Assembly: GCA_018238965.1 (NCBI GenBank)
Contig: JABCSI010000009.1
Location: 1-33,238 of the forward strand
Source of the DNA: Promethearchaeota archaeon
GTDB taxonomy: Archaea; Asgardarchaeota; Lokiarchaeia; Sigyniarchaeales; Promethearchaeaceae
Reading direction: 5' to 3'
DNA length: 33,238 nt
Of this stretch, positions 23,417 through 32,091 are shown piece by piece (within the stretch, counting starts at the first letter, position 1; the number at the start of each line of letters is the position of its first letter). Below the pieces are notes generated by a model that was not told the origin of the DNA, ran no database searches, and saw only the letters and a list, made by a program, of their open reading frames with translations. Both the position numbers and the translations under genes were made by a program.

Positions 23417-25006
23417 ATGAGTAAATCAACTACATCCCAAACCGAAACCCCAAAAAGCCCGGTATCAAAATTTAAGACTATCCTTCTGCTGGCTGTTACT
23501 ATTCTCAGCATTGGATTTTGGTACACGGCTATTTATGCTCCAATCGAATCCCATGAAGGTGAGTTTATTCTGGCATTGGATGATCCGCAATTTTCAAATT
23601 TAACCGATATCGCAATCTTGCACCATCCTTCGACTGCCAGAATCTCCCTGGAGTTTGACCCCACCGCCACTCTATTGTTCAATGCCTCGTGGCAACACAT
23701 TTATACCGAAGAAGGCGCCACCGAACCGTTAGATATGGTAGTGGAATATACCTTAACAGAAAATAACACTTTGTTATCGATAGATATTGCCGATTCCACC
23801 GACGATCAAGCCTTTAATTTCATGGGAATGATGTGGAATCGCATTAATATCTTCGAATGCGTGATCACCATTAATCCCATAGCACTAATGGATTTGTACG
23901 TAAATCTGGAGGATGTAGGAGTTGACATTTACGCCCAGGAAACCCATTTTAGCACATTCAATATTGAATACGAAACTGGACATGTAGATATCTATCTGGA
24001 TAATGTAACGGTCCAAAACCCCGTTAACATTGAAGGATTATCTGCAGGGAATGATATTTACTTAAACAATGTGATTTTTGAATCTAATTTTTCAGCCTCC
24101 ACTATCTCAGGGCACCAAGATTTATTTATCTCGGATGTGGAATTTCAAAATGTTTCTGTTGATACCGTGTCTGCCGGAATCGATTTCATCTGTGATGATT
24201 CGACCGCTCTGGATGTGAAAATTTCCTCGGCCACTGGGCATATTGATTATTTTGTAGACAATCAGATTCTTAATGATCTAACCATCACAACAGCTTCATC
24301 TGGTATTGATGTTATCGGTACGATGGTGGAAATGGGCAATGTTGCGCTTACAACTGGCACTGGACATATCGATGCGGTGTTTCAGGATGCCAACACTGGG
24401 GACCTCACTCTTACCACAGCCACTGCAGGAATTGATCTGTATATAGATGATTCCGTTACCGGTAATGTGTCAGCTACCAGTGCCACAGGTCATATTGACG
24501 TGTTTTTGAATGCCCTGGAGGCTCAAAACATATTTGTCACCGATGGTACGGGTGGTGTATATTTTAACCTATTTGAAAGTGAAGTTGCTGATGTTTCTAT
24601 TCACCGAACCACCGGATATGCGAATATCCAATTGGAAGATTCCACAGTTGGGGATATTTCTATCAGTAGCACTTCGGGTGGAACGGATTTTCTAATGGAA
24701 CGGGGTGTTCTTCAAGGCAATATTACGGTCGACACCTCAACGGGTCATCAAGATGTTGAATTGTTTGATATTTCCTTCAATCACACCCTCTACGTAGATA
24801 TTTCAACCACAACTGCTGGATTGGATCTATACTGGTCCCAAGAACAAGTATCGGTGAATTTTCCGGTGTATGTTACTCTGGAAAGTACCTATGGGCAAAT
24901 TGATGCAGAAATCTACTTGCAATCCGGGGATGAAGAATGGTTTACCTTTATCATTTTCACAGATGACGACAATCCAAACGTCGAAATTGAAGCGCCGGAT
25001 TACTAA
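23417..25006 (+). CDS. Membrane-anchored surface protein with 21-residue alternating beta-solenoid repeats
   Basis: The 529-residue protein starts with a Lys-containing stretch and one hydrophobic segment (residues 20-40), a signal anchor that puts the rest outside the cell. From about 165 to 500 a conserved Asp (or substitute) recurs at 170, 191, 213, 235, 256, 277, 298, 319, 340, 361, 382 (Tyr), 403 (Asn), 424, 446, 470 and 496, nearly all 21-22 apart. The preceding residues alternate between G-H-x-D (for example TGHID) and A/S-G-x-D (for example TAGID). Each rung also has a Leu/Ile/Val-rich strand. This fits a beta-solenoid related in style to DUF4097 putative adhesins. It ends in an acidic tail (DDDNPNVEIEAPDY). 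Ligand and role are unknown. Confidence 0.8.
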   Translation: MSKSTTSQTETPKSPVSKFKTILLLAVTILSIGFWYTAIYAPIESHEGEFILALDDPQFSNLTDIAILHHPSTARISLEFDPTATLLFNASWQHIYTEEGATEPLDMVVEYTLTENNTLLSIDIADSTDDQAFNFMGMMWNRINIFECVITINPIALMDLYVNLEDVGVDIYAQETHFSTFNIEYETGHVDIYLDNVTVQNPVNIEGLSAGNDIYLNNVIFESNFSASTISGHQDLFISDVEFQNVSVDTVSAGIDFICDDSTALDVKISSATGHIDYFVDNQILNDLTITTASSGIDVIGTMVEMGNVALTTGTGHIDAVFQDANTGDLTLTTATAGIDLYIDDSVTGNVSATSATGHIDVFLNALEAQNIFVTDGTGGVYFNLFESEVADVSIHRTTGYANIQLEDSTVGDISISSTSGGTDFLMERGVLQGNITVDTSTGHQDVELFDISFNHTLYVDISTTTAGLDLYWSQEQVSVNFPVYVTLESTYGQIDAEIYLQSGDEEWFTFIIFTDDDNPNVEIEAPDY

Positions 25007-30045: not shown

Positions 30046-30315
30046 GTCTAAAACCACTACCCAAATTCTAATTCCATTTTATAAGTTCATCCATCAATGC
30101 TTTGGGAGCATATTTGGAGAGCACAACAAAAACAGAAAATGAGCATCGTGTGGTCGTATGTATGGATCAGATGTGTTGAAAAATTTTAAACTTTTTGACT
30201 TTTGCTGACTTAGACTTCCAATTTTTATATTTATTTTGCATAATCACCTATAATCAAATATAATCCCCCAATATACTTTTATTCCCAAAAAACCACTGAA
30301 TTTCAAGTGATTACA

Positions 30316-32091
30316 ATGAATTATGATCAAAATCGAAATCGAAAAACAATGAAATATAGCATAATTATTGCCGTGATGATCGTATTTGCGGCGTTGGGGC
30401 AAAGATCCCTTTCAGTGAATTCAAATTTAATTCAAGCAGAAACAAAAGCAGAAACAATTCAATCAGCGGGGTCTTGGACACTAACATCGATATCTATTGA
30501 TAACGCGGGTACAAGCACTTGGGTTAATACCGAATCCACGTATGATTGGTGCACGGGCTCCGGTATTGAGGGAGACCCTTATTTGATTGAAAACGTAACG
30601 ATAACACCTAGTTCTGGTTCCGGTATAACTATTAAAAACTCCCGTGGGGTGTTTTTCAAGATCCAAAATTGCACATCGGGTACAACCACTACCGCTGCCG
30701 GCTATGGAGGGATTGGGATCTACAACTCGGATTTTGGGGAGTTAATCGAAAATAATTGCTCAGAAGGAGCCGGAAGTGGCATCGCATTTGAAAATAGCGA
30801 CAATATAACGATTCAAGATAACTTTTTGAGCTATAATGAATTTCACGGAATATTCTTTGACGGTAGTCCAGATAGCTGTGATGAAAATACCATCAGTGGG
30901 AATACCATGATTAATAATTCAATACTGGGCATATATTTGAACTATAATAACTCTCTGAACATCATTGAGGGGAATCTGATAGATGGATTGGGTAGTCAAG
31001 ACAATGGGATAGATTTTTCCAATTATGGGGATTATAATACAATTATTGATAATAATATCCAAAACCTCAACGGTTTGGCAATAAATTTTGGATATATGGG
31101 TAGTTTGAATGGACATAACTACAATCTTGTCCAAGACAATACCATATTGGGGGGATCTAAAGGCATCTATTTTGAAACCGATGGTATTGGTAATGAAATA
31201 ATCGGAAATTCGCTCACAGAACTAACATCCTCAGGAGTGTGGGTGGCAGGTGAAGACGTCTTACTTCAAGCCACCTTGGTGCAAAACAATGATTTCTCTG
31301 AATGTAAAACAGGCATTGTAGCTGATCGATATACAGAAGACACACTTATTACGGGAAATACAATAAATGGGACTTCTACCGGTACAGGGATAAACCTTTA
31401 TACATGGAGTAGAAATAACATTGTGAAGGAAAATATCATTAATTACAACAAAAGGGGGATTATGTTACAAAATTCCAATGAAACTCACCCAATAATAAAC
31501 AACACCATAAATTACAATTCAGAATACGGAATCTATGGTTATGCGTGTAAGGACCAATCTATTTTGGATAACGTTTTACGGTACAATAATAAAAGTGGGA
31601 TACATTTCTTTTTCTCGGAAAACAATGTTGTGGCGGGTAATATCATCTCCGAAAGTATCCAAGATGGTTTATCCTTATTTCTAAGTAATGAAACATACAT
31701 CTCGGGAAACATCATCACCATGAATCAGAATAACGGAATTTTTTCTAACAAAAGCAATGCCAATCACATCGTTGGTAATATGATTTATGACAATGGGGGT
31801 ACAGGAATCTCGTTGGAGTCGAGTAATGATAGCGTAGTCCACGATAATATTTTGGGAGGAAATCTTGTATGCATTGAAGAGGTAAATTGCGTTGGAACCA
31901 TTGAATATGACAATCTCTGTATCCAGATTGGCGATGGAGATCCCAATGATAATGAAACCCTCAGTATGTCTTCACTTTTGGATGCCCTTACCGATACGGA
32001 GGGTATTGTCATCGGCGGAACCGGATTGGGGATTGGAGCGATCATCGCAGCCTTAGTCGCAGGGGGAAAAAAGAAACCTAAAAAGAAATAG
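30316..32091 (+). CDS. NosD/pectate-lyase-like right-handed beta-helix surface protein with C-terminal anchor
   Basis: The 591-residue protein (from ATG 30316; a GTG at 30307 is possible) starts with a hydrophobic export signal (KYSIIIAVMIVFAALG). It then has a long series of parallel beta-helix repeats of about 22 residues rich in N-x-I and G-I (such as ENSDNITIQDN, SGIHFFFSENN). Near the end a Gly-rich hydrophobic segment (GIVIGGTGLGIGAIIAALVA) is followed by a Lys tail (KKKPKKK), a membrane stop anchor. It is exported and tethered to the cell surface. Beta-helix proteins of this type bind or cleave polysaccharides or serve as surface structure; no catalytic residues are evident. It is divergent from the thermosome gene. 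Confidence 0.9.
   Translation: MNYDQNRNRKTMKYSIIIAVMIVFAALGQRSLSVNSNLIQAETKAETIQSAGSWTLTSISIDNAGTSTWVNTESTYDWCTGSGIEGDPYLIENVTITPSSGSGITIKNSRGVFFKIQNCTSGTTTTAAGYGGIGIYNSDFGELIENNCSEGAGSGIAFENSDNITIQDNFLSYNEFHGIFFDGSPDSCDENTISGNTMINNSILGIYLNYNNSLNIIEGNLIDGLGSQDNGIDFSNYGDYNTIIDNNIQNLNGLAINFGYMGSLNGHNYNLVQDNTILGGSKGIYFETDGIGNEIIGNSLTELTSSGVWVAGEDVLLQATLVQNNDFSECKTGIVADRYTEDTLITGNTINGTSTGTGINLYTWSRNNIVKENIINYNKRGIMLQNSNETHPIINNTINYNSEYGIYGYACKDQSILDNVLRYNNKSGIHFFFSENNVVAGNIISESIQDGLSLFLSNETYISGNIITMNQNNGIFSNKSNANHIVGNMIYDNGGTGISLESSNDSVVHDNILGGNLVCIEEVNCVGTIEYDNLCIQIGDGDPNDNETLSMSSLLDALTDTEGIVIGGTGLGIGAIIAALVAGGKKKPKKK

Follow-up and report, generated by a model that had tools for sequence, protein, structure and literature searches.

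The window analysed here is a stretch of 33,238 nucleotides from a Promethearchaeota archaeon (contig JABCSI010000009.1). Positions 23417–25006 of its forward strand encode a 529-amino-acid protein, P0001, which belongs to the Toastrack superfamily (Pfam PF13349, DUF4097, with which DUF2154 and DUF2807 have been united) and is predicted to be anchored in the membrane. LiaG of Bacillus subtilis is one example of this superfamily, and 4QRK and 4OPW are two of its structures. P0001 matches PF13349 with 41 bits, the cut-off being 22.9 (E=1.9e-10), which bears out the relationship to DUF4097 suggested in an earlier note on this DNA. As in other Toastrack proteins, there is an N-terminal transmembrane (TM) segment and a repeat of the type [S/T]-G-x-[I/V]-x-[hydrophobic]. 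The family fold is a single-chain beta-helix with two extended sheets; for P0001 a single-chain beta-solenoid is predicted, at about 21 residues to the coil. The chain begins with a tail rich in Lys and Ser, followed by the putative TM helix (residues 18–40; 23468–23536, forward strand), which is placed by AlphaFold2 (AF2), hydropathy and charge; the hydropathy peak lies at residues 16–34 and the flanking charge is +1/-3. Beyond the helix the sequence is acidic. A membrane-proximal region that is probably rich in beta strands (residues 46–155; 23552–23881, forward strand) was delimited by AF2 and by comparison with homologues, at low model confidence, and leads into a predicted solenoid of 16 coils (residues 156–502; 23882–24922, forward strand), defined by a check of the individual rungs and by AF2, with 21 residues per coil in its core. 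The ectodomain contains 80 Asp or Glu residues and 5 Lys or Arg residues, giving a pI of about 4.

The neighbouring genes encode a metallophosphoesterase, a cupin, a class-V aminotransferase, an Lrp/AsnC regulator and a NosD-like beta-helix protein. The metallophosphoesterase, which carries a short NNPNNPNNPNNPN insert, lies upstream of P0001 (22536–23294, forward strand). It has relatives in three genomes of the sister genus, where they lie on different contigs from the Toastrack orthologues, so the two genes do not form a conserved operon; in G001, a single-contig genome of the genus to which the window belongs, it was not detected. The NosD-like right-handed beta-helix protein (30307–32091, forward strand) has a signal-like segment at its N-terminus and, at its C-terminus, a TM segment with a Lys-rich tail after it, and is probably another surface rod in the window. 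P0001 itself gave no Pfam match to NosD or to the right-handed Beta_helix family at E values up to 1.

The repeat in the solenoid is marked by an Asp, here called D0, relative to which the other residues of a rung are numbered. All 16 positions that the earlier note had marked as Asp or a substitute were checked, and Asp is found at 14 of them, the exceptions being Tyr382 and Asn403. The spacings between successive rungs are 21, 22, 22, nine times 21, 22, 24 and 26, so that ten of the 15 are exactly 21, one more than had been counted before. A second ladder of Asn and Asp, of the ordinary type, runs along D-11. What sets the protein apart is the difference between odd and even rungs. On all eight odd rungs there is a Gly at D-2, preceded by V, A, A, S, A, G, G and A in turn, while on all eight even rungs the Gly is found at D-3, just as the earlier note had described. 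In the even rungs this Gly is followed by His at six positions in a G-H-x-D turn, namely His189 in rung 2 (23981–23983), His233 in rung 4 (24113–24115), His275 in rung 6 (24239–24241), His317 in rung 8 (24365–24367), His359 in rung 10 (24491–24493) and His444 in rung 14 (24746–24748). In the remaining two the His is replaced, by Tyr401 in rung 12 (24617–24619) and by Gln494 in rung 16 (24896–24898); all eight codons were placed by the rung check and lie on the forward strand. The six His named in the note are therefore all present, and on even rungs only. The wording of a strict G-H-x-D and A-G-x-D alternation holds for the alternation as such and is too narrow for the residues, as a literal A-G occurs in four of eight odd rungs and His in six of eight even ones. 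Likewise, the pattern is found in the interval given for it (23912–24907), and its extent is wider, from about residue 156 to residue 502 (23882–24922).

With the composition of the 16 rungs held fixed, a perfect alternation of Gly and non-Gly at D-2 would arise by chance with a probability of 2/12870, or 1.6e-4, and the odd/even split ranks best among all 12870 partitions of the rungs. His is enriched at D-2 as well, with six of the 13 ectodomain His falling within these 16 sites (p=7e-7). When D-3 and D-2 are excluded, no difference between odd and even rungs is seen in the other 19 columns (p=0.83). The identity between coils at the DNA level is 0.43 at a lag of one coil and 0.44 at a lag of two, and a duplication of two coils is not visible in it. 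Since the signal is limited to D-3 and D-2 and the two lags are about equal, there is no trace of a recent two-coil duplication. The two-step alternation in P0001 is thus confirmed as real and is confined to two residues.

AF2 predicts a solenoid already from the P0001 sequence on its own. When three relatives are added (four sequences in all), pLDDT is mostly 87–96 over residues 190–470 and the TM helix at residues 18–40 appears, while residues 35–146, where the N-terminal seven-stranded intertwined region of Toastrack proteins would be expected, stay below 50. The beta-solenoid proposed in the earlier note is in this way supported by the structure prediction that it recommended, a confident model in which the solenoid is regular and every 21 residues contribute two main strands. 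For 15 of the 16 rungs the first residue of strand B is D-1, and for 13 of them the strand runs exactly from D-1 to D+4; in the core coils strand A finishes near D-6. From these boundaries it follows that, in the model, D-3 and D-2 belong to a short turn that links the two strands on the solenoid's edge and not to a sheet face, and that the Asp of each rung falls in strand B. Among solved structures, 4QRK gives a weak match to a profile built from four Asgard members (E=0.014). Foldseek searches of the PDB with two models gave no confident solved neighbour; the best match was an autotransporter passenger domain (E=0.013, TM 0.25), and neither 4QRK nor 4OPW was among the matches listed. Neighbours among viral models were also considered for one of the models and set aside, the two best being uncharacterised proteins that superpose poorly (rmsd 13–17 Å).

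The two-step pattern raises the question of what counts as one coil. The predicted strand layout is identical for odd and even rungs, and two orthologues from the sister genus that are 78% identical (L003 and L004, also listed as L020 and L022) differ by a deletion of exactly 21 residues. Together these point to a coil of 21 residues, with odd and even rungs looking like equivalent single coils and the His therefore two coils apart. A coil of 42 residues, which would place the two turn types on opposite edges and the His in a tight ladder, was rejected because all rungs share one strand layout, because there is no odd/even signal elsewhere in the coil, and because of the single-coil deletion between the orthologues. 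At 21 residues per coil, His on successive even rungs would be about 9.6 Å apart and the rod would be about 75 Å long.

The same observations bear on the idea that the alternation is a relic of expansion, in which an ancestral 42-residue unit of two coils was duplicated several times, after which the coils drifted apart at all positions but the turn. P0001 and L003 align by eye at both ends of the solenoid and differ by six coils, or three such units, and coil similarity is higher at even lags than at odd ones when the D-3 and D-2 columns are counted. Against this, there is no odd/even signal in P0001 outside those columns (p=0.83), DNA identity at lags of 2, 4 and 6 coils (0.44–0.46) is marginally above that at lag 1 (0.43), and single coils have been lost among the orthologues. 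Even if the pattern had started in this way, its survival at just two columns would still require selection there, and we consider a relic rather unlikely.

The nearest relatives of P0001 come from three genomes in the sister genus of the same family, labelled Candidatus Prometheoarchaeum. These proteins (L003, L005 and L004, corresponding to L020, L021 and L022) are 26–27% identical to P0001 overall and have the TM helix, the tail before it and the 'APIE..GE' segment in common with it; the conserved segment, running from the TM helix into the beta-rich region, reads 'FWxxAxYAPIE..GE'. In contrast to P0001, these orthologue-like proteins have 10–11 coils and a Gly nearly always at D-3. The D-2 column of L003 reads R-S-Y-A-Y-S-Y-S-Y-S-Y, a two-state pattern in which Ser and Tyr replace Gly and His, and the bulky residue is found on the opposite rungs, with Tyr on odd rungs 3, 5, 7, 9 and 11, whereas the His of P0001 are on even rungs 2, 4, 6, 8, 10 and 14. 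The opposite phase suggests that it is the alternation of large and small residues that is shared, and not the identity of the residues. In another genus of the family, a protein with a zinc ribbon, a TM segment and a Toastrack domain (L035) has S-D-S-D-S-D-S-D at D-2 over rungs 1 to 8, and most of this alternation is also seen in L061, a relative with 55% identity to it. Two-state columns are thus found in three lineages, as Gly/His in P0001, Ser/Tyr in L003 and Ser/Asp in L035 and partly in L061.

Among 72 Asgard Toastrack proteins a uniform D-2 column, made up wholly of Ser, of Gly or of Asn, is the more frequent case, and in many relatives, such as L006 and L082, the column is mixed and without order. 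An alternation as a general trait of DUF4097 proteins can therefore be discarded, most Asgard members being uniform or unordered. It is worth noting that the rungs of the relatives were located by a simple motif chain, and that a few may be misassigned. Two coils of the same protein carry the same residue at D-2 with a frequency of 0.49, versus 0.24 when coils are pooled across the 35 members compared; for D0 in the same 35 members the corresponding values are 0.19 and 0.15. As side observations, L062 (G013:C451) has D-2 residues DDKDDKDDDN, a possible period of three coils with Lys on each third rung, and proteins with a zinc ribbon, a basic linker, a single TM segment and a Toastrack domain are encoded in genomes G005, G003, G013, G023, G021 and G007 (L035, L061, L062, L068, L077 and L036). 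Toastrack genes adjoin each other in pairs at G044:C17, G147:C241, G150:C69 and G161:C57, which suggests tandem duplication. A profile made from four Asgard Toastracks matches 84 of 228 genomes, compared with 15 for the Pfam model, and judged by these matches Toastrack appears to be common rather than sporadic in this Asgard order, where it often takes the form of a zinc ribbon–TM–Toastrack protein.

The Gly/His form was not found in any other of the 228 Asgard genomes searched. A profile of one 42-residue dyad, the check recommended in the earlier note, gave only weak general Toastrack matches outside P0001 in the 228 Asgard genomes, and the G-H/A-G pattern was not among them. A degenerate DNA pattern for GHxD..GxD..GHxD had no match beyond P0001 in the same genomes; in viral contigs it had six, none of which gave a solenoid when translated. 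A tblastn search of plasmids with a Ser/Asp Toastrack as query gave no match. The note had held that its idea would fall if homologues did not conserve the His and the alternation. The His are indeed not conserved, the closest homologues having Ser/Tyr or mixed residues and most of the family uniform ones. The alternation fares differently, as a two-state column is found among the nearest relatives, in L003, and is mostly lacking outside them. In the sequences compared the His thus appear not to be conserved, yet a pattern of two coil classes recurs.

One could argue that a single poorly conserved column of the repeat merely happened to alternate. When corrected for 72 proteins, only the alternation in P0001 is individually significant (1.6e-4 x 72 = 0.01), one protein in 72, while Ser/Tyr (0.004) and Ser/Asp (0.03) count as suggestive. 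For P0001, however, the probability for one column is 1.6e-4 even at fixed composition, there is a second column that alternates out of phase with the first, and alternation is seen in a close homologue as well, all of which makes chance highly improbable.

The reading that we think probable, from the sequence patterns and the model, is that P0001 is a single-pass membrane Toastrack rod of about 16 coils in which the two-state edge turns form a checkerboard packing; the packing role, the extracytoplasmic side and the function are our inference. In such a rod each coil would consist of two main strands linked via a short edge turn, and G-[H/Y/Q] turns would be interleaved with [A/V/S/G]-G turns along the stack. 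The Gly that the turn requires would shift between D-2 and D-3 on alternate coils, giving the checkerboard, so that the even-rung side chain at D-2 would sit between two glycines of the neighbouring coils and the D-3 glycine would be flanked mostly by small side chains above and below. A bulky residue at D-2 (His, Tyr or Gln) would be tolerated where both adjacent coils have Gly. More generally, D-2 may be a stacked edge position where residues must fit those above and below, with a uniform small residue as the usual solution; the pattern in P0001 would then be a local form of a family-wide D-2 ladder that matches itself within each protein, and the Ser/Tyr of L003 would follow the same logic of large and small with other residues and in the other phase. 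Ser and Asp have no strong contrast in size, which counts against packing by size.

The earlier note had instead proposed a possible metal- or glycan-binding face, and this is not supported, as the alternating residues lie in the edge turn of the model and the His ladder is absent from every homologue found. A related possibility is a metal-binding or pH-sensing strip, in which the His of even coils and the Asp of three successive coils would coordinate divalent ions, or in which protonation of the His would ease the repulsion between the Asp. The strong enrichment of His at one position (p=7e-7), its place two residues before a nearly invariant Asp (14 of 16) and an ectodomain with 80 acidic and 5 basic residues, where His is almost the sole cationisable group, would all fit such a strip. 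The conserved His ligands that a metal-binding ladder would call for are, however, lacking in the Asgard relatives examined, where D-2 is occupied otherwise; Ser/Tyr, Ser/Asp and uniform Ser or Gly form no comparable site, and within P0001 itself Tyr and Gln take the place of His. A distance of 9.6 Å between His, as deduced above, would strain a shared site. The calcium-binding beta-roll of RTX proteins resembles P0001 in being a parallel solenoid outside the cell whose Gly/Asp turns recur along the chain, but P0001 lacks the GGxGxD nonapeptide and no RTX family was found in the Pfam scan. We therefore regard a metal or pH strip as unlikely. It is also doubtful, and in our estimate quite improbable, that a stacking code in the edge turns of Toastrack proteins (uniform or strictly two-state as Gly/His, Ser/Tyr or Ser/Asp) is combined in P0001 with a His/Gly ridge that switches its shape or charge with pH or metal beside the Asp ladder and thereby acts as a surface sensor.

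A ridged edge could also serve as a zipper, with the bulky His or Tyr of alternate coils interlocking with a second copy or a partner rod at an offset of one coil, for adhesion or lateral assembly. The recurrence of large and small residues in a related rod with other residues would agree with this, as would the edge location of the turn in the predicted secondary structure, and one published proposal is that the sheets of Toastrack mediate interactions between proteins (PMC11237479). Against such a zipper, the edges of most relatives are uniform, and we give it little credence. Stacking of two kinds of coil, the basis of the checkerboard that we prefer, has an analogue in the prion-forming domain of HET-s, a beta-solenoid where coils of two classes, each of 21 residues, follow one another in turn; a Gly in an edge arc is strictly conserved there, and the residues of neighbouring coils complement each other (PMC4055769). 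This is an analogy only. The sequences are unrelated, the alternation in HET-s comes from stacked copies of a two-coil chain, and its complementarity is one of charge, versus one of large and small residues in P0001.

P0001 most likely has its N-terminus inside and its C-terminus outside the cell, with the acidic rod on the outside, as suggested by the Lys-containing tail, the TM helix and the acidic C-terminal part. An enrichment of sequons would support surface exposure; it is weak here and not significant (9 observed, 5.9 expected, p=0.11). In several relatives, a zinc ribbon before the TM segment would by its position imply that the Toastrack rod is outside the cell. This topology runs contrary to the view that Toastrack is intracellular, which was argued from bacterial fusions (PMC11237479). 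The most likely role of P0001, going by what is known of the family, would be that of a scaffold or sensor, acidic and exposed at the surface close to the membrane, in parallel to what has been proposed for the Toastrack proteins of envelope-stress (PSP/Lia) systems. The Pfam scan showed no PSP/Lia fusion domain in P0001, and neither PspA, PspC, LiaI-LiaF-TM nor a two-component system, nor with them a PSP/Lia gene neighbourhood, was found among the nine neighbouring products scanned in the window.

Compared with the Toastrack proteins described so far, P0001 differs in its two-state turns and in a rod that is probably outside the cell instead of intracellular as argued for the superfamily (PMC11237479), and compared with other Asgard members in its length, with about 16 coils versus 6–11 by the same motif. 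What appears to be new within Toastrack, from the sequence and the predicted fold, is a rod of unusual length whose edge turn comes in two states. Proteins of this superfamily occur widely, and little is known of what they do. The self-matching ladder at D-2 would provide a testable rule for how Toastrack rods pack, and could guide the design of solenoids.
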